A DNA stretch of 64,000 nucleotides from contig LR778114.1 of NCBI GenBank assembly GCA_902809825.1, positions 496,001-560,000 on the forward strand, given 5' to 3'. Under the pieces are notes generated by a model. That model had not been told where the DNA came from, did no database searches, and was given only the letters and a program-made list of their open reading frames with translations. This DNA comes from Candidatus Hydrogenisulfobacillus filiaventi (GTDB lineage: Bacteria > Bacillota > Sulfobacillia > Sulfobacillales > R501). A program made the position numbers and the translations under genes. Below are positions 23,760-35,311 of the stretch, in pieces (the stretch's first letter is position 1; each line of letters starts with the position of its first letter).

Positions 23760-24662
23760 ATGGTGAGGACAGGGACCGAAGGGGTCCGGGACTACGATTT
23801 TCAACGCCCGCACCAGTTAAGCCGCCTCGAGCTGGACGCGCTCACGCTCCTGTTCGAGTCCTGGGGACGGGTGACGGCGAACTTTCTCTCCAACTACCTG
23901 CGCACGGTGGTGAGCCTGCACGAGGTCAGCGGGCAGCAGCTGCCGTATGAGGAATATTTGGACCGCGTGCGGGTGCCCACCGTGCTGGCGGTCTGGGACC
24001 TCAACCGGGAGGCGGGGGGGACGGCGCTACTGCAGCTGGACCCGGCCATCGCCCTCAATATCGTCGACCGCGCCCTGGGCGGACCGGGCTACGGGCCGTT
24101 CCCGGTGCGGGAGCTGACGGAGATTGAGCAGGCCATCCTGCGCCGCATCCTCCGCCGGATGGGCGACCTGTTCGTGCAGACCTGGGCGCCCACCGCGCCC
24201 CTGAGCCTGGAGCTCACCCAGCTGGAGTTCAACCCCGCTTTTGCCCCGGTGGCGGCCGAGGGCGACCTGGTGGTGGCCTTCAGTCATGCCATCAGTCTGG
24301 ACGGGCAGGAGGGCCGCCTCACCTGGGTGTGGCCGTTCGGGGTCATGCGCCCGCTGGCCGAGCTGCTCACCCGGCACAGCCTGGGCCGGGAGGAGGGTCG
24401 CCGGGTGGAGCCCCGCCCGCGGGAGATGGAGCGCCACCTGAAGGCGGTGCCGGTGCACTGCACGGTGGTGCTGGGGCGGGCGCGGATTACGCTGGGGGAT
24501 TTCGACCGCCTGCGGGCAGGGGACGTGCTGCTGCTGGACCGCCGGTATGACGAAAGCCTGGAACTCCGGGTGGCGGGCCTGCCGAAGTTTGATGTAGTGG
24601 CGGGCCGGTCGCACGGGCACTTTGCGGTGCGGGTGATCGGACGCCGGCCGCTGGATGAGTGA
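23760..24662 (+). CDS. fliM: Flagellar motor switch protein FliM
   Basis: A 300-residue C-ring protein: YDFQRPHQLSRLELDALTLL near the start, LDPAIALNIVDRALGG, LTEIEQAILRRILRRMGDLF, and a C-terminal SpoA (FliN-like) domain. The N-terminal CheY-binding peptide (LSQDEIDALL in most FliM) is lacking, as the protein begins directly with the linker. The ATG at 23760 is used because the frame before it does not resemble FliM. It overlaps fliN signals downstream. Confidence 0.93.
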   Translation: MVRTGTEGVRDYDFQRPHQLSRLELDALTLLFESWGRVTANFLSNYLRTVVSLHEVSGQQLPYEEYLDRVRVPTVLAVWDLNREAGGTALLQLDPAIALNIVDRALGGPGYGPFPVRELTEIEQAILRRILRRMGDLFVQTWAPTAPLSLELTQLEFNPAFAPVAAEGDLVVAFSHAISLDGQEGRLTWVWPFGVMRPLAELLTRHSLGREEGRRVEPRPREMERHLKAVPVHCTVVLGRARITLGDFDRLRAGDVLLLDRRYDESLELRVAGLPKFDVVAGRSHGHFAVRVIGRRPLDE

Positions 24663-24675
24663 GGAGGGTGAGCAG

Positions 24676-25152
24676 ATGGCCAAGAAGGCGGTGCGGCTGA
24701 CCGCAGAGGAAGTGGCGGCGCTGGCGGGGCAGGGGGATCCGGCCCCCGACCCCGGCGGGGTAGAGATCCGGCCCGTATCCTTCGCTGAGCTGGAGGAGGG
24801 GCCACCCCGGCGGGAAGAGGAGGCCGGGCCGGTGGCCTTCCTGTGGGACGTGCCCATGACGGTAGAGGTGGAGCTGGGCGCAGCCGACTTGGCCGTGCGC
24901 GACGTGCTGGCCCTAGGACCGGGTTCGGTGGTGGAGCTTGACCGCTCCTACGGCGAACCCCTCGACATCCGCATCAACGGCCGGCTGGTGGCGCGGGGCG
25001 AGGTGGTGATTGCGGGCGAGAACTTCGGGGTCCGGATCACCGAGATCCTGGTTTCCCCGGCGGAACTGGCGGGGACGTCCTCCGACGGGGAGCCGTCGGC
25101 ACCAGGGGGTGAGGCGCCGCCGGCCGCGAACCCGGCGCCGGAGGCAGGGTAG
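24676..25152 (+). CDS. fliN: Flagellar motor switch protein FliN
   Basis: A 158-residue protein with an acidic N-terminal half and a SpoA/FliN domain (about residues 60-130: VPMTVEVELGAADLAVRDVL, LGPGSVVELDRSYGEPLDI, GEVVIAGENFGVRITEIL). It forms the base of the C ring with FliM. ATG 24676 has GGAGGGTGAGCAG before it; the earlier ATG 24655 overlaps fliM. There is no CheC-type phosphatase region, so it is FliN rather than FliY. The last 26 residues are a Pro/Ala tail that lies opposite csrA. Confidence 0.93.
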   Translation: MAKKAVRLTAEEVAALAGQGDPAPDPGGVEIRPVSFAELEEGPPRREEEAGPVAFLWDVPMTVEVELGAADLAVRDVLALGPGSVVELDRSYGEPLDIRINGRLVARGEVVIAGENFGVRITEILVSPAELAGTSSDGEPSAPGGEAPPAANPAPEAG

Positions 25153-25375
25153 CCGGGGGCGGGCTGTCGGCGGCGGCCTGGTTGGCCTGGGTCGCCAGCC
25201 AGACCTCCTCCCGCAGCACGCGCACCTGGGCCGGGGCTTCGATGCCCAGCCGGACGGTCTCCCCGCTCACCTCGAGCACCCGGATGTGGATGGGGGGCGG
25301 GGCGTCGCCGGCGCCGGGGCCGGGCTCCCAAAACAGCACGATGGCGTCGCTGGCCTTGCGCGTCAGCACCAGCAT
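25037..25375 (-). CDS. csrA: Carbon storage regulator CsrA with C-terminal tail
   Basis: A 112-residue RNA-binding translational repressor. The CsrA core is residues 1-68: MLVLTRKASDAIVL, IHIRVLEVSGETVRLGIEAP and VRVLREEVWL, with an extra Pro/Gly-rich loop (16-28) between the first two strands. The remaining 44 residues are Pro/Ser/Arg-rich and not part of the fold. They are encoded opposite the fliN 3' end (116 bases of overlap). ATG 25375 is preferred to an upstream GTG at 25381. CsrA represses flagellin translation and is held by FliW, encoded just before it. Confidence 0.92.
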   Translation of the reverse strand: MLVLTRKASDAIVLFWEPGPGAGDAPPPIHIRVLEVSGETVRLGIEAPAQVRVLREEVWLATQANQAAADSPPPATLPPAPGSRPAAPHPLVPTAPRRRTSPPVPPGKPGSR

Positions 25376-25417
25376 GGGCACCGTTCCCTTCTCCGTAGGC
25401 TGGGATCCGGTGCTCCA

Positions 25418-25873
25418 TTATGGCGTCGGGCGAGGCGCGGAATCAACCGGGGCCGGCAGCGGCGGCAGCGGCACCTGATAGCCCCAGGGGGTGGAGAGGA
25501 TGAACTGCCCGCCCCGGCGGGTCCAGCGGTTAAACACCAGGGGGCTGCGCAGATTGGCGGCCGGCTGGTTGCGGCCGGCCTCGAAGGTGAGGAGGACCAG
25601 CACCGCCCAATCGTCCGGCGGGCCGGCCACGGCCAGGTCCACATCGCCGGGGGCGACGGCATAATCCGGGAAGAACACCAGGGGATCGATGACCACGAAG
25701 GCCAGCGCCGGCTCGTCGGCCGACTGCAGGTACAGGAAGGGGTTGTCCGGCTGCACCGGCAGCAGCACGTAGCGCCGGTAGGCTTCAAACCCCAGGATGG
25801 GCCGCTCGCAGGTCAGGAGGTCCTCCTCCCGCACCTGCAGCCTTCCGAAGAAACGGGTGGCAATCTCCGGCAC
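25418..25873 (-). CDS. fliW: Flagellar assembly factor FliW
   Basis: A 151-residue protein matching FliW: TRFFGRLQVREEDLLTCERPI near the N-terminus, FLYLQSADEPALAFVVIDPL, and the SPLVFN strand. FliW binds CsrA non-competitively and relieves repression of flagellin mRNA; free flagellin sequesters FliW. The GTG start at 25873 follows AAGGGGGGAGCCC. It lies between flgL and csrA in the same direction, as in Bacillus. Confidence 0.95.
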   Translation of the reverse strand: MPEIATRFFGRLQVREEDLLTCERPILGFEAYRRYVLLPVQPDNPFLYLQSADEPALAFVVIDPLVFFPDYAVAPGDVDLAVAGPPDDWAVLVLLTFEAGRNQPAANLRSPLVFNRWTRRGGQFILSTPWGYQVPLPPLPAPVDSAPRPTP

Positions 25874-25895
25874 CGGGCTCCCCCCTTGGTGCCCC

Positions 25896-26801
25896 TCAGG
25901 GCTGAATGAAATTGAGCAGGCTCAAGGGTAGCACCTGGGCCCCGCTTTCCAGGGCCGCCTTCAAGGCCTGTTCCTCCAGAGCCAGGTTGGTGGTCACCCG
26001 GGCCATGTTCGCCCCGCTCACCGTGGCCACGCTCTGCTCGAGGTCGGTCTTCAAGGTCCCCAGCCGGCTGGCCTGGGCGGTCAGGCGCTCCAGCCGGGCC
26101 CCGACGATGGTCGACTCCTCGGTCACCTCCGGGATGATGGCCTGGAGGCTGCTGACGGCGGTGGTGATGGAGCTGGGATTCCCCGAGACCACCGCTTGCT
26201 GCAGACTTTCCACCGCGTTGAGGGCGGCAGCCAGCACGCTGGTGCCTCCCAGCTCGTAGCCGTTGATGTTCTCCGTCACCGAGGCCTGATGGCCAATGGG
26301 CAGCGTGTCCTTGACTGCTGTGGCGGCGGAGGCGGCCAAGTTCTGGTCGGCGGGCGGCGAGCCCGTTGCCACGGTCGTTTGGGGGTTGGCGGCGGCAAAA
26401 ATGTAGACGCCCTGGTACTGGGTATTCAGGATGGTGGCGATCTCGGTCGACAGCTGCTGGAGCTGTTCGCCGATGGCGGAAAGGTCCTGGGGGCTGTTGG
26501 TGCCCGACTGGGCCTGGATGCCTAGCGCCAGGGCCCGGTTGAGATTGGTGGTCATCTGCTGCAGGGCCCCGGCGGTGGTGTTGAGGAAGTTCTGCGCCGC
26601 AGTGATGTTGGACAGGTAGCGCCGGATGTCGGCCAGCGCCTGGTTGAGGTTCATGGTGGCGGTGACCGCTTCCGGGTTGTCGGCTGGGTACTGGAAGCGC
26701 TGGCCGGTGGCGGCCTCCTCCTGCAGCTGCTGCAGGCGGGCCTGGCCGGCATCGAGGTTGGCGATGAGGCTGTTGGCCAGCATGGTGGCGGTAACCCGCA
26801 C
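25896..26801 (-). CDS. flgL: Hook-filament junction protein FlgL
   Basis: A 301-residue flagellin-like protein: MLANSLIANLDAGQARLQQL and EEAATGQRFQYPADNPEAV at the N-terminus and GANMARVTTNLALEEQALKA at the C-terminus. The GTG at 26801 is the start dictated by AAAGGAGG eight bases before it; a longer frame reaches 26825 but has no ribosome site. With FlgK it forms the adaptor between hook and filament. Confidence 0.93.
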   Translation of the reverse strand: MRVTATMLANSLIANLDAGQARLQQLQEEAATGQRFQYPADNPEAVTATMNLNQALADIRRYLSNITAAQNFLNTTAGALQQMTTNLNRALALGIQAQSGTNSPQDLSAIGEQLQQLSTEIATILNTQYQGVYIFAAANPQTTVATGSPPADQNLAASAATAVKDTLPIGHQASVTENINGYELGGTSVLAAALNAVESLQQAVVSGNPSSITTAVSSLQAIIPEVTEESTIVGARLERLTAQASRLGTLKTDLEQSVATVSGANMARVTTNLALEEQALKAALESGAQVLPLSLLNFIQP

Positions 26802-26828
26802 AGGAAGGACCTCCTTTCTGGCCACCCG

Positions 26829-28217
26829 TTAGCCTAAGGCGGCCAGCAGGCTGTTAAAGGTGGCCTGCTCCGACTGCACCAGACGGGCGGCGGCCAGGTA
26901 ACTCTGCTGCTCCTGGATGAGGTTGGCGGACTCCTGGTTGAGGTCCACCCCTACCGCTGACTGCAGGCTGTTCTGCAGCTGGGTGAGGACCGCGGACGCG
27001 TTGTCGGCTGTCTGGACCGCAGTCTGCCCGTCCACGCCCACCTGGCCCACCAGGGCCGTGTACTGGCTTACAAAGGTGTCGGCCAGGGCGGCCATGTTCT
27101 GGGCGTTGGCGTTGGCGGCGCTGATGGTACCCGGGGAGACCGCCACGGCCAGGGTGGTGCCGTTGAAGGGCTGGAAGAAGGCCACCGGGCCGCTGCTGCT
27201 GGTGTTGGACGCCAGCACCTGGTCGGGGTTGGGGCTGCCGTTGACGGTGGCGTCGGCCAGGGTGGCGCCAAGCGTGGCCAGCGCCTGCCCATACTGCTCC
27301 AGGCGGCTTAACGCCGTCAGGTCCCCGTCCAGCTTGCCCCCGGCGAGGGCGGTCAGGGGGGCGCCGTCCGCCCAGGTGAAGCTGAGGGTGGTCTGGTACC
27401 AGGCGGCACCGGGCGAGGAGGTCATGGTCAGCAGGGCCGGCGGTGCCTGACCCGGACGCCAGGCCGGATCCAGCGGCAGGCGGTTGCCGGTGACCACGGC
27501 CTGGCCGCCAATGTAGACGTCCACGGTGTGGTTGGGGTTGACGGTGTACTGGATATCAGCCACCTCCGCCAGCTGGTTGAGCAGGGTCCCCAGCTGGTCC
27601 TGCAGCGCGTTGGCCGACCCCCCGGCCGCCTGGACATCCGCGATCTGGCCGTTCAAGGTGGCAATCTGGGCGGCCAGGCTATCGAGGGTGCTAAGGCGTT
27701 GCGCGATGGTTTGCTGAACGTTGGCGGCGGTGGCCGCCAGCTGACTCATGAGCCCGTTGTAGGTCTGGGCCAGCGACTGCCCCTGTTCATAGACCTCCAT
27801 CTGAGCGGCCCCCGAATAGGGATCCTGGGCCAGCTGATTCCAGGCGTTAAAAAAGGCATTCAAAGCTTCCTGCAGGCCGCCGGGGGACGGCTCCTGGAAC
27901 AGGCCCTGGATCTGGTTGAGCACGGCCGACTGGGTCTGCCAGCGGCCGCGGAAGGCGAGCTGGTTGCGGACCGCGCGGGCCAGGAAGGCGTTCTGGAAAC
28001 GGGTGACGGAGGTCACGTCCACACCCTCGCCCAGGGGTCCCGCCTGGTTGGCGCTGCCGAAGCTGCCCGTCCCCACCGGCGGGGCCTCGCTGAGGTTGGC
28101 CACCTCCTCGTGGTAGCCGGGGGTGGTGGCGTTGGCCATGTTGTTGGCCGTTACCTCCAGCGCAATCTGCTGCGCCGCCAGCGCGCGCTGGGCGATGTTC
28201 AGCATCAGAAACGACAC
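26829..28217 (-). CDS. flgK: Hook-associated protein FlgK
   Basis: A 462-residue protein. The N-terminal rod-like motif is ALAAQQIALEVTANNMANAT, then TPGYHEEVANLSEAP; the C-terminus has QQSYLAAARLVQSEQATFNS. The GTG at 28217 is chosen since AAAGGAGG lies nine bases upstream. It precedes flgL by 27 bases and is the first structural gene of the late minus-strand operon. Confidence 0.95.
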   Translation of the reverse strand: MSFLMLNIAQRALAAQQIALEVTANNMANATTPGYHEEVANLSEAPPVGTGSFGSANQAGPLGEGVDVTSVTRFQNAFLARAVRNQLAFRGRWQTQSAVLNQIQGLFQEPSPGGLQEALNAFFNAWNQLAQDPYSGAAQMEVYEQGQSLAQTYNGLMSQLAATAANVQQTIAQRLSTLDSLAAQIATLNGQIADVQAAGGSANALQDQLGTLLNQLAEVADIQYTVNPNHTVDVYIGGQAVVTGNRLPLDPAWRPGQAPPALLTMTSSPGAAWYQTTLSFTWADGAPLTALAGGKLDGDLTALSRLEQYGQALATLGATLADATVNGSPNPDQVLASNTSSSGPVAFFQPFNGTTLAVAVSPGTISAANANAQNMAALADTFVSQYTALVGQVGVDGQTAVQTADNASAVLTQLQNSLQSAVGVDLNQESANLIQEQQSYLAAARLVQSEQATFNSLLAALG

Positions 28218-28277
28218 GACGACGGGCCTCCTTTCCCGTTCCCGCACCGGGGGCCGTCCCTGGCCCCCCTTGCCCGC

Positions 28278-28610
28278 CTACCAGCTGGTGTCCAGGCCGC
28301 CGGTGCGGTCGATGCCGAGCACCGCGCGGGCGAAATCGATGTAGCCCAGCTGGGTTTCCAGCAGGGTGCCCAGATAGGTGGTCCGCCCCATCCAGGCCTC
28401 GATCAGGTCCCGCAGCTCCGCCCGTTCCCCCGGGGAAAGGGGCGGGAAGCTGTAGAGGATGCGCTGGACCTCCGCCAGGGGGTCCATCTCCTCCTGCAAC
28501 AGGTTCAGCAGCCGGTCGCTGTCCCGGGCGATGGCCGCCTGGATCTTGGCCTCCGTAAGGGCGGCCAGGCGCATGATGAGCCGGCGCAGATCCTGCGCCG
28601 CCTGCGACAT
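28278..28610 (-). CDS. flgN: FlgN-like flagellar chaperone
   Basis: A 110-residue helical protein (LRRLIMRLAALTEAKIQAA, LLNLLQEEMDPLAEVQRIL) with no membrane segment. FlgN proteins guide FlgK and FlgL to the export gate and are poorly conserved. The assignment rests on size, helical content with a conserved-looking middle (LLQEE) and position immediately before flgK. GGAGGGG precedes the ATG. Confidence 0.65.
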   Translation of the reverse strand: MSQAAQDLRRLIMRLAALTEAKIQAAIARDSDRLLNLLQEEMDPLAEVQRILYSFPPLSPGERAELRDLIEAWMGRTTYLGTLLETQLGYIDFARAVLGIDRTGGLDTSW

Positions 28611-28634
28611 CGTGCATGCCCCCTCCGCCGGGTC

Positions 28635-29036
28635 TCAGACCCACAGGTCCACCAGCAGGCCCTTGAGCGCATCCAGATGCCCCAGCAGGGCCGTACCGGG
28701 ATGGGCCGTCAGGGCCTGGCGCCCGATCTCCGCCAGCTCCCAGTCGATGCGGGCCACCACAAATAACTGCCGAAAGCGGCCGCGCGCGGACAGGGGGGGC
28801 AGGCGGGCCGCGGTAGCCCGTTCCAGCAGGCGGTTCAGGAGCGTACGCACGTGCTGGCGGTAGCGCTGCACCGTGTCGGGCCCGGGCACAGCCACCAGTT
28901 CGGCCTCCAGCTGCAGGAGGCGGCGCCACGCCGGGCTGGCGGTCAAGTCCCGGACCGGGGTCCGGGCGCGTCCCGGAGCGGCTAGGACGCCATCCTCCTC
29001 CCGCACGCGCGCCGGACCGGTAGCGTCGATGCGCAC
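28635..29036 (-). CDS. YaaR-like (DUF327) protein
   Basis: A 133-residue protein. The C-terminal 95 residues resemble the YaaR/DUF327 family of Firmicutes: YRQHVRTLLNRLLERATAAR, RFRQLFVVARIDWELAEIG, and LKGLLVDLWV at the end. No function is established for the family, though members often lie near flagellar genes. The GTG at 29036 is chosen because AGGAGGAGGGGAAGG is directly before it; ATG 29057 lies upstream of that site. Confidence 0.7.
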   Translation of the reverse strand: MRIDATGPARVREEDGVLAAPGRARTPVRDLTASPAWRRLLQLEAELVAVPGPDTVQRYRQHVRTLLNRLLERATAARLPPLSARGRFRQLFVVARIDWELAEIGRQALTAHPGTALLGHLDALKGLLVDLWV

Positions 29037-29121
29037 GACCTTCCCCTCCTCCTGCATTCTAGGCGGAGGCGGGGACCGGTCCCAAACTTTAGCGGGGATT
29101 AAAACGGAGCCGGGGGCCGCA

Positions 29122-29328
29122 TCACGCGGAGGGGGACGCAGCCCAGTCCGGTCCGGAGAAGTAGGAGGCCTGGATGATGACGATGTAGCGGTCGATTTCC
29201 TGGGAAATGGCCAGCACTTCCGGGTCCAGGTTACCGCGGGTTTCCGCCAGCGCAGCCAGGCGCGCCTGCAAGGTGCGCACCCGTTCCCACGCCTCCTCGC
29301 AGGGGAGGCTTGTCCCTTCGTGAGCCAT
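29122..29328 (-). CDS. Spo0E-like aspartyl-phosphate phosphatase
   Basis: A 68-residue two-helix protein with the Spo0E signature: LDPEVLAISQEIDRYIV (residues 34-50), where SQEID (42-46) is the catalytic loop motif SQELD. Such proteins dephosphorylate phospho-Spo0A and delay sporulation; some relatives act on other response regulators. ATG 29328 follows AAAGGAG. It is the first gene after a strong promoter and heads the yaaR-flgN-flgK-flgL-fliW-csrA run. This is the best hint that the host forms spores. Confidence 0.83.
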   Translation of the reverse strand: MAHEGTSLPCEEAWERVRTLQARLAALAETRGNLDPEVLAISQEIDRYIVIIQASYFSGPDWAASPSA

Positions 29329-29357
29329 GGCGCAAGCTCCTTTGTTGAGATGCACCC

Positions 29358-29386
29358 GTTATAGTGGATCCGGGGGTGCAAGTCAA
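29358..29386 (-). promoter_or_regulatory. Sigma-A-type promoter of the spo0E-flgK-csrA operon
   Basis: On the minus strand: TTGACT (29381-29386), exactly 17 bases, TATAAC (29358-29363). It lies 30 bases before the spo0E-like start. One of the best promoter matches in the window. Confidence 0.8.
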
Positions 29387-29420
29387 TCCGTGGGATTTGT
29401 GGTAAAAAAAGTAACCGCCA

Positions 29421-29657
29421 TCACTTGCGCCGGGGCATGGCGTTAAAGGCTTCCCACTGGCGCTTCATGGCGTGGAGCGCCAGCTCCAGCGGGCTGACGC
29501 CGTTGCGCCGCGCCTCGGTGCGCAGGCGGTCGAACAGGTCGAAGACTTCATGGCGGGCTTCGACATACTCCGGATCCCGCGTCCACTCGACATGCAATCC
29601 CGCCTGGTCGGCCTTCACGTGCAGGTCGAATCCTCCGAACCGCGAGCGACGCTCCAT
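29421..29657 (-). CDS. Small hypothetical protein
   Basis: A 78-residue soluble, charged protein (RFGGFDLHVKADQAGLHVEW, then helical YVEARHEVFDLFDRLRTEAR) with no recognised family. ATG 29657 follows GGAGGGGG. It ends 34 bases before the promoter of the spo0E operon, in the same direction, so it is transcribed separately or reads into it. It is not FlgM: the acidic helical C-terminus and MKI-type start are absent. Confidence 0.6.
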   Translation of the reverse strand: MERRSRFGGFDLHVKADQAGLHVEWTRDPEYVEARHEVFDLFDRLRTEARRNGVSPLELALHAMKRQWEAFNAMPRRK

Positions 29658-30539
29658 CGTGGTGACCCCCTCCTGCAACGCCCGGCTTGCACCCCGAAAA
29701 CGGCCCAGCCCGAATCCACTATAGCGTCAGTCTACCATGGACCTGAGGGCCGGACGGGCCCAATTTCCGGCAGGTTTCTAACGCAAGTGTAGTGAAACCC
29801 GGGTTCAGGAAAAATGCTCCAGGCGGGCCGGCCGGAAACGGTGGCCGCCGGCCGCGGCTGCAGGCCAGATCCGCGGCAGGGTAAGCGGCATCCGGCGGGG
29901 GGATCCTGATCAGGTTATGCGCGGCACCGCGGGCGTCATCGGCCGTCCGCCCTGGCCGGGCCCGGCGCGGCAACGGCGCGGCCCCCATCCTTTCGCCATC
30001 GCGGGTACCATGGAGGCTCTTTTGCCCGGATGCAGTCTTCCGGGAACCCCCCGCCCGCCATCCGGACGACCTGGTCTCCCGCGGGATGTGGTGGCAGCCC
30101 GGCTCCACAACTGCCCGGCGGCGGTGAGAGGGACCGGGGCGTGACGGGCAACCGGGTAGGGCTGGTGCGGCAGGGCGAGCGCGGTCTGCGGCAGTGGACC
30201 CGGCTCGCCGCGGTTCCGTGGCTTTTCCGCCTCGGCCGGGGAGGTGCCGGCGGCCGGCGGGCCGCGGTTGGCCAAAAAGGCAGGTGCTTTCCCCGGAGGA
30301 CGAGGTGAAAGCGGGGCCCCGCTCCCGGCTCGAAGGCCCTGGCATTGGAGACCGGAGTGCGCCTGGGTTGGCTTTGCAACGTCGCCAGGCTCTCCTCGCC
30401 CCCAGGGCCCATGCCGCCCGGATCGCATTGCCGGTGGGGCGGGCATCCGGTTAGAGCCCGAGAGGCCTGCCGCAGGGACCTGTCCCAACCCACGGGACCA
30501 CATGCAAACGGCGGCACCCCTGGCGCCGCCGATCGGGGA
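29658..30539. other. Non-coding interval of about 880 bases
   Basis: No convincing gene. Open frames on both strands are Pro/Arg/His-rich, overlap each other and lack ribosome sites. TATAGT on the minus strand near 29720 could be a -10 for the 78-residue gene. The tract could hold decayed mobile DNA, but I found no motif that proves it. Confidence 0.5.
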
Positions 30540-33932: not shown

Positions 33933-34355
33933 TCACGCGTGATGGGCTTCGGTCCATAACGCCACTCCTTCATCTTTGGCGGCATGGACCAGGGATGCAT
34001 CCTTGGTTACTAACGCGAGCCCCTTTTTTAGGGCGAGGCGGAGATAGGACGCATCATAGGCCGATAACTGGTGACGCCGGGCCAAATCCATCAAATCAGT
34101 TTCAAAGTGTAGACACGGTTCCGGTTCAACATGGATAGCTAAATCTCCTAAGAGGTCGATAAACTGCGCGGTTTCCGCGCGAGTAATCCGGCCCCGCCGC
34201 TCAGCGACGAGCAATACGTTGGCGATCTCGAGCGGCCAGATGCTGGGGACCAAAAATGTCGTCGCGACGGCCTGATCGAGGACCGCCAGGCTGTATTCAT
34301 CCTCTTCGTCCTCGAAGCACCAGGACAAGGCCACTGACGCGTCTAAGACCAGCAT
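33933..34355 (-). CDS. vapC: PIN-domain ribonuclease toxin, VapC family
   Basis: A 140-residue PIN-domain protein. The acidic metal-binding residues are in place: Asp 5 (MLVLDAS), Glu 43 (PLEIANVL), Asp 101 (SAYDASYLRLA) and Asp 119 (TKDASL). VapC toxins cleave tRNA or rRNA. Its ATG overlaps the last base of the antitoxin stop (TAATG), the usual coupling in toxin-antitoxin pairs. Base composition is clearly less GC-rich than neighbours, which suggests acquisition. Confidence 0.92.
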   Translation of the reverse strand: MLVLDASVALSWCFEDEEDEYSLAVLDQAVATTFLVPSIWPLEIANVLLVAERRGRITRAETAQFIDLLGDLAIHVEPEPCLHFETDLMDLARRHQLSAYDASYLRLALKKGLALVTKDASLVHAAKDEGVALWTEAHHA

Positions 34356-34594
34356 TAATGCCGCCGCCCTTCTTCGATGGCCTCCTTGAGGGGCATCTCC
34401 AGCCGTCGCCCCTTGGCAAACTTCTTCAGGGCTTCAGCGGCTTCGGCAACGGTACGGGTTCGTCCCTGGGGGGGAGGTGTCAGGTATGCCATAGGCTTCC
34501 CGTTTTTTGTGATTAAGATGGTTTCGCCCTGAGCGACGCGGTTGAGAAGCTCCGCCAACCGAACCTTGGCGTCATAAGCTCCGATCTGTTCCAT
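34355..34594 (-). CDS. Phd/YefM-type antitoxin of the VapC pair
   Basis: A 79-residue antitoxin: YDAKVRLAELLNRVAQGETI and LITKNGKPMAYLTPP form the Phd/YefM DNA-binding fold, and the C-terminal 30 residues (AEALKKFAKG...) should wrap the toxin. ATG 34594 follows TAGGGGGTGATAAC. The operator palindrome sits 14 bases upstream. Confidence 0.9.
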   Translation of the reverse strand: MEQIGAYDAKVRLAELLNRVAQGETILITKNGKPMAYLTPPPQGRTRTVAEAAEALKKFAKGRRLEMPLKEAIEEGRRH

Positions 34595-34607
34595 GTTATC
34601 ACCCCCT

Positions 34608-34645
34608 ACTAGTCTTAGACTAGTCTGATTGGCATCTGAATGCAA
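34608..34645 (-). promoter_or_regulatory. Promoter and autoregulatory operator of the toxin-antitoxin pair
   Basis: ACTAGTC-TTA-GACTAGT (34608-34624) is a perfect inverted repeat with 7-base arms. Minus-strand TTGCAT (34640-34645), a 17-base spacer and TAGTCT (34617-34622) form a promoter whose -10 lies inside it. Binding by the antitoxin would block transcription. Confidence 0.65.
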
Positions 34646-35311
34646 CGCGGATTGCATCCTGGTGGGTGGTCCGGGTGGCTGCCCCGAATAGTGCGAATCC
34701 TTTCGGCCGGGGTGCGCAAGAGAGTCGGAAGGCGCGTGGGGGAATAAAACCGGTAAACGGGGGGCAGCAGGCGGGCGCATCGGATCCCGGTGGGTGAAGA
34801 AGACGCTGGGCAGGGGCGGTCGGTGCCACACGGCCGGGGTGCGACGCCGATGTTCCGTCCATCCGGCGCGAGAGGCATTCAGCTGGGGGAGGGGATTGGT
34901 CCCGGGAGCGTGATGAGCCAGGATGGGGATTCACCCGGCAAAACCTACCAAAATAGCGGTTGCAGCCGGGCAAACCTGCCGCTTGCAGCCGTTGATGTCG
35001 GTGTCAGTGGGGGGCTTCAGGTACATGGCGCCAGGACAGGGTGGGGGAGGGTCCGGTCGAGCGCCCGCAAGCCAGCCCGGAGAAAAAGCTCCGGTGCATT
35101 AGGAGGGGTCGCAGGCTAGCGGGGAAAGAACGTGTGGTCCGCACCAGGGGGACGACTCCACCAGGGATGGTGTCCTATCCGAAATTTCCGGTCGAGTCAG
35201 GCCTTCCGGTTCCAGGCAGGGGCCCAGGCGGCATGTTGCCGCCGCCGGCCCATCTCGGTGTCCAAAGTGGGCTTATGGAAGCCTCGACAGCGGCACGGAT
35301 GGAAACGGCGA
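34646..35311. other. Non-coding interval of about 670 bases
   Basis: Frames in all six readings are short, mutually overlapping and unlike any family I recognise. A 'GCAGCCG' sequence recurs near 34960 and 34986 in a small repeat-like patch (TTGCAGCCGG / TTGCAGCCGT). Nothing else is visible before the tRNA hairpin. Confidence 0.4.

Follow-up and report, generated by a model that had tools for sequence, protein, structure and literature searches.

A Spo0E-family gene kept next to the hook-filament genes in Sulfobacillus and its relatives, and a candidate promoter within a predicted hairpin at yaaR

The flagellar locus of the B. subtilis type runs flgM-flgN-flgK-flgL-fliW-csrA. The stretch of 64,000 nucleotides analyzed here (the window) has flgN-flgK-flgL-fliW-csrA in the same order, but where that locus has flgM it carries up85-spo0E-yaaR in the FlgM position, in a bacterial order, which we take to be Sulfobacillales, without detected sigma-28. 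A role of Spo0E in motility and sporulation is already known: in C. difficile and B. subtilis it affects both, and its effects on motility were judged independent of Spo0A (available text of PMC11115286). The protein of the window is like those proteins in family, in its SxxxD signature and in its two helices; the difference is that here spo0E is a fixed neighbor of the hook-filament genes across the order, whereas the main text of PMC11115286 contains none of the terms "operon", "flagell-" and "adjacent". Physical linkage of spo0E-like genes to genes affecting motility is also described in C. saccharoperbutylacetonicum, where they lie beside RRNPP quorum-sensing genes (PMC7206700, available text); the partners there are quorum-sensing regulators, whereas here they are flagellar structural genes. 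The closest parallel for the yaaR leader comes from bacteriophage T4, where the leaders of gene e, soc, 49 and I-TevI have a Shine-Dalgarno sequence (SD) hidden by a hairpin in longer upstream transcripts (PMC3014915, available text). As in the gene e type, the candidate promoter at yaaR lies within the DNA of the predicted SD-hiding hairpin; unlike T4 gene e, yaaR heads chromosomal flagellar genes, relatives appear to use a leaderless start, and the translational effect is a prediction. Within the collection of papers searched, none joined Spo0E with Sulfobacillus; searches on Spo0E and FlgM found no such locus, judged from titles and the beginnings of abstracts, and those on Sulfobacillus, FliA and flagellar pointed to Leptospirillum, by title.

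The genes of the block and the promoter of spo0E are as follows.

29421-29657, minus strand: up85, 78 aa, directly upstream of spo0E; family unassigned, no Pfam match
29386-29358, minus strand: spo0E promoter TTGACT-N17-TATAAC, then the SD AAAGGAG (read from the sequence)
29122-29328, minus strand: spo0E-like gene, 68 aa, SQEID; ATG start, SD AAAGGAG; PF09388
28635-29036, minus strand: yaaR (DUF327); PF03885, 5.8e-7
28278-28610, minus strand: flgN-like gene, by its position before flgK and a gene shared by relatives; PF05130, E 0.21
26829-28247, minus strand: flgK; TIGR02492, 8.5e-77, over cut-off; FlgK, 3.1e-37
25896-26825, minus strand: flgL; TIGR02550, 4.1e-48, over cut-off; flagellin N-terminus, 3.8e-19
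25418-25873, minus strand: fliW; PF02623, 5.3e-26
25037-25381, minus strand: csrA, with a proline-rich tail; PF02599, 8e-16

The first-pass annotation had placed spo0E, yaaR, flgN, flgK, flgL, fliW and csrA in one direction, and all seven do lie on the minus strand, the flgN call being weak and resting on position and relatives. The near-consensus promoter that it saw before the 68-residue SQEID gene is borne out as well: the sigma-A-type site agrees with the consensus at 10 of 12 positions, and was not listed by our promoter scan because the scan demands T at the sixth position of the -10 box. The product is a Spo0E-type protein, as first described (PF09388 SpoOE-like, E = 4.1e-7, 30.3 bits over a cut-off of 23), and its gene is the sole PF09388 match of the 2,570,337-base genome. 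The SxxxD signature, present as SQEID, is kept in 28/28 Spo0E proteins of the block. The AF2 model is a two-helix hairpin (residues 10-31 and 36-57, mean pLDDT 81.8), with block means of 94-96 in residues 11-50; the top match among solved chains, 2c0s, reaches no more than E = 0.11. An inverted repeat, TGCACCC/GGGTGCA, flanks the spo0E -10 box (29351-29380, minus); genus g6 has another repeat, CCACGATC/GATCGTGG, at the same place, and relatives vary likewise. A further sequence, TATAGTGGAT(C/T)CGGG, stands inverted on both sides of up85 (29360-29374, plus; 29709-29723, minus), the first copy overlapping the spo0E -10 box.

We surveyed the genome of the window together with 60 relatives (61 genomes, 42 of them from the same order). 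A strong FlgK match (E <= 1e-50) was found in 32 of the 42, the window's own genome included, and all 32 regions were examined. Synteny in relatives, proposed earlier as a check, speaks for the linkage: up85-spo0E-yaaR-flgN-flgK-flgL-fliW-csrA occurs in that order in 28/32 genomes, and chance alone is insufficient to explain a block kept to this extent. A scan of named genomes shows Sulfobacillus thermotolerans, S. benefaciens, S. acidophilus and S. harzensis among its members. The conserved block begins at up85, one gene earlier than the spo0E start first assigned to it. In genome G038 (L092) the block is present but spo0E is missing from it, and G013, G018 and G026 have a flagellar locus of a different kind; in G001, G009 and G011 the block spo0E does not come up to E 1e-3 with PF09388 and is matched only by an iterated profile built from the block. 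We also sampled the phylum with 129 genomes, of which 86 have Spo0E and 112 have FlgK; the matches listed, compared by eye and leaving the weakest Spo0E matches outside, include no Spo0E within 38 kb of FlgK on one contig besides that of the window. S. acidophilus (L063) appears to carry the whole hook-filament block; the description of its type strain, however, is of a non-motile organism in which flagella were not seen (PMC3558970, available text).

The small gene up85 was matched in 36/42 genomes of the order and in 1/19 of the others (61 searched), and it precedes spo0E in 23/23 loci of the scan of named genomes (L100-L122). Two genomes have the up85-spo0E pair away from this flagellar block: G020, where flgK is absent, and G026 with its other type of flagellar locus. 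The tight pair is thus up85-spo0E, with the flagellar genes as its frequent neighbor. Together with the genomes in which up85 lacks an adjacent spo0E (G003, G005, G013 and G039), these solitary pairs are what one would expect if an ancestor had acquired up85-spo0E at the position of FlgM and its descendants had kept it there by inertia, without any functional link to motility. We consider such neutral neighborhood unlikely, if not negligible, given that 28/32 genomes from many genera keep the block despite a second spo0E gained nearby and despite changed promoters. In 13/28 block genomes this additional spo0E, on the opposite strand, separates spo0E from yaaR. The loci noted to have a second member of the Spo0E family, of a distinct, SRELD-like subtype and convergent to the block spo0E, are L062, L064-L066, L069, L071, L073, L074, L077, L081, L082, L086 and L087.

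Three further features lie in the DNA between spo0E and yaaR.

29082-29100, minus strand: conserved element AATCCCCGCTAAAGTTTGG, upstream of the yaaR -10 box (Gibbs motif)
29061-29056, minus strand: -10 box TAGAAT of a candidate second promoter, directly before yaaR; position conserved in relatives
29037-29081, minus strand: inverted repeat with the -10 box in its loop and its 3' arm over the yaaR SD (centroid fold)

The TAGAAT at 29061-29056 is one of only nine TAnAAT sites on both strands of the 64-kb window. We aligned 25 of the 29 yaaR loci on this -10 box, taking the candidate nearest to yaaR where a locus had several and leaving out L076 (a near copy of L075), L077, L081 and L088; these loci share a second element, 20-40 nt upstream. 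In 11 genomes, one per genus, the Gibbs score of this upstream element was 75.5, vs. 60.0 in shuffled sets (sd 2.7, maximum 69.3, 60 sets); the version in the window is CTAAAGTTTGG with TAGAAT. Across the 61 genomes the element pattern returned the yaaR site in ten and 17 scattered sites, against 25 in a reversed control, and therefore no wider regulon was seen. A sigma-28 promoter was rejected as an identity for the element, its spacing being unlike the consensus and the order being without detected sigma-28. Genera g3, g6 and g7 contribute twelve genomes in which only six bases separate the end of the -10 box from the apparent ATG of yaaR, and the yaaR message therefore looks leaderless; all but one of the twelve carry the spo0E on the opposite strand.

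These results bear directly on the claim that spo0E heads a single operon through csrA, against which the first-pass annotation had itself named a terminator or a second promoter between spo0E and yaaR. A scan of 24600-30400 found no terminator-like sites, in keeping with the claim; the promoter-like site at yaaR was found and is conserved, and the single operon fails on that account. That the spo0E promoter drives everything from spo0E to csrA, with late flagellar expression and Spo0A-P dephosphorylation rising together, strikes us as improbable: the conserved promoter at yaaR, the intervening opposite-strand gene of 13/28 genomes and a hairpin with matching arms over the yaaR SD weigh against it, even granting the shared strand, the short gap, the lack of a terminator-like site in the scan and the good spo0E promoter.

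The likely start of yaaR in the window, picked by reading the sequence, is GTG at 29036, with the SD GGAGGAGGGG at 29052-29043. The centroid fold of the window places TAGAAT in the loop and GGAGGAGGGG in a paired stretch; in the computed fold of an RNA beginning near 29050, the same SD is unpaired. Taken from the window sequence alone, the yaaR hairpin is weak evidence, as it is not unusual for DNA this GC-rich (z = -1.0 over 76 nt and -2.8 over 68 nt; arms at 7.9% of positions drawn at random from the window pair as strongly as those at yaaR). The layout with the -10 box in the hairpin loop and the yaaR SD in the 3' arm is found in 13 genomes of seven genera (hereafter SD-type), in two loci of which (L075 and L068) the best yaaR SD may sit just outside the 3' arm. 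The mean fold z at yaaR is -3.47, with z below -2 in 10/13 SD-type genomes. Summed over the 13 genomes, SD accessibility at yaaR was 0.31, only a little under the 0.35-0.46 of other genes, and we exchanged this gene-averaged measure for an arm-swap test because the choice of start blurred it too much.

The arm-swap test measures how well the 30 nt preceding the -10 box pair with the following 32 nt, where the yaaR SD lies. The hairpin arms match within genomes and not between genomes: in the 13 SD-type genomes, mean pairing was -26.2 kcal/mol within a genome vs. -17.6 kcal/mol across genera, a value equalled by 0/2000 permutations, and with one genome per genus by 0-3 of 5000 permutations in five draws. 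The signal was gone when the arms were moved 30 nt downstream (4756/5000). In the 12 leaderless or f2 genomes, arm pairing was -10.4 vs. -10.1 (658/2000 permutations), and for seven other genes of the block no comparable signal emerged (560 to 1941 of 2000). When placed by the start codon, the test showed no signal at spo0E (1277/2000), of whose leaders 4/12 had a fold z < -2.

Equal arm matching would also result from a DNA dyad, and the arms are symmetric about the -10 box, as an operator bound there by a dimeric repressor would be; insulation would then act at transcription only. This reading appears rather unlikely to us, since the arm sequences vary between genera with pairing kept (G-U and Watson-Crick pairs counted together), the 3' arm holds the yaaR SD in the window and in the majority of SD-type genomes, and genomes with a leaderless yaaR lack the repeat.

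We favor instead, at slightly better than even odds (a probability of about 0.55), a reading of the sequence in which up85-spo0E and yaaR-flgN-flgK-flgL-fliW-csrA would be two neighboring insulated units that have stayed adjacent throughout the order. Since the flagellar genes seem to have a promoter of their own and the yaaR start looks locked in RNA made from spo0E, expression of spo0E would be controlled separately. Transcription from the spo0E promoter might run on downstream, as no terminator was found; in such read-through RNA the yaaR SD would be hidden in the hairpin, or absent in the leaderless genomes, and yaaR would stay untranslated. RNA from the yaaR promoter would start inside the hairpin, leaving the SD free, and would be translated, as in T4 gene e. 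With a separate promoter and a hidden start at yaaR, the levels of Spo0E and of the hook-filament proteins could therefore be set independently, despite the touching genes. Counting against this reading are the ordinary strength of the hairpin in the window alone, the modest difference in SD accessibility, the G038 block that lacks spo0E, the non-motile description of S. acidophilus and the report that spores were not observed in the organism of the window. If true, the yaaR leader would give a simple system for testing how a gene on a chromosome can be readable from its nearest promoter only.

The genome encodes Spo0A (Spo0A_C, 5.4e-45, with a receiver domain and a SpoIVB peptidase gene upstream), and RpoD, SigE, SigG and SigK are over their cut-offs, which answers in the affirmative the earlier question of whether spo0A and sporulation genes are present; SigF is a best match lying under its equivalog cut-off in this genome. 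Membership in its family suggests that the Spo0E of the window would act on Spo0A-P, which it would lower while cells invest in motility, and we infer that sporulation and motility may be coordinated through this locus. What stands of the motility-sporulation operon first proposed is the Spo0E family, Spo0A and the conserved linkage; the one operon driven from spo0E is not supported. It is possible, if on the unlikely side, that Spo0E acts mainly on a motility regulator and not on Spo0A-P, like C. difficile Spo0E via RstA. The effects on motility described for C. difficile and B. subtilis, which were judged independent of Spo0A (PMC11115286, available text), would fit such a target, as would the report that no spore formation was observed in the organism of the window, "Candidatus Hydrogenisulfobacillus filiaventi" R50 (PMC10080006, available text). 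It fits less well with a protein that is the sole Spo0E of a genome having Spo0A with a receiver domain, or with an SxxxD signature kept in all 28 block proteins.

FliA/WhiG (sigma-28) exceeded its cut-off in 0/42 genomes of the order vs. 17/19 other members of the class, and a FlgM profile search of the window's own genome gave no match. FlgM lies directly before flgN in 4/4 outgroup loci tested (L094, L095, L097 and L098); here its slot is filled by up85-spo0E-yaaR. The arrangement may have arisen as the order lost sigma-28 and FlgM, and one may speculate that up85-spo0E-yaaR replaces FlgM functionally. An order with spo0E fixed beside its hook-filament genes, and with sigma-28 not found, raises the question of how its late flagellar genes are timed. 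A fuller scenario, which we regard as doubtful, is that up85-Spo0E took the checkpoint slot before flgN upon loss of sigma-28 and FlgM and thereby tied the motility/sporulation decision to late flagellar genes, the yaaR operon being insulated by a promoter in a hairpin, T4 gene e-like, on a chromosome.

Little can be said of the product of up85. Its predicted structure has three strands and two helices at low confidence (pLDDT 63); Pfam family searches returned no match, and a fold search with this low-confidence model returned nothing at E <= 0.001. Matches in the PDB to designed helical repeats were put down to a chance likeness of idealized helices. FlgM was rejected as an identity for up85, there being no PF04316 match in the window's own genome and none among the matches listed for 20 up85 members. 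SinI, also absent among the matches listed for these 20, matched 1/11 members at E = 0.069; an hhalign comparison gave a probability of 24.5%, and SinI is a lead only. Upstream of up85, Spo0A boxes (TGNCGAA) numbered 7 in 6/29 regions, vs. 2.5 expected, a count reached by 1/200 shuffle sets; no box was found in the window or in the up85-spo0E gap, yaaR had no excess, and the result was not used.

At the far end of the flagellar genes, csrA overlaps the convergent, opposite-strand fliN by 116 bases (25037-25152), an overlap that links two flagellar units at their ends. Elsewhere in the window, at 33933-34831, two minus-strand ORFs resemble, by reading, a toxin-antitoxin pair with a PIN protein of the VapC type.
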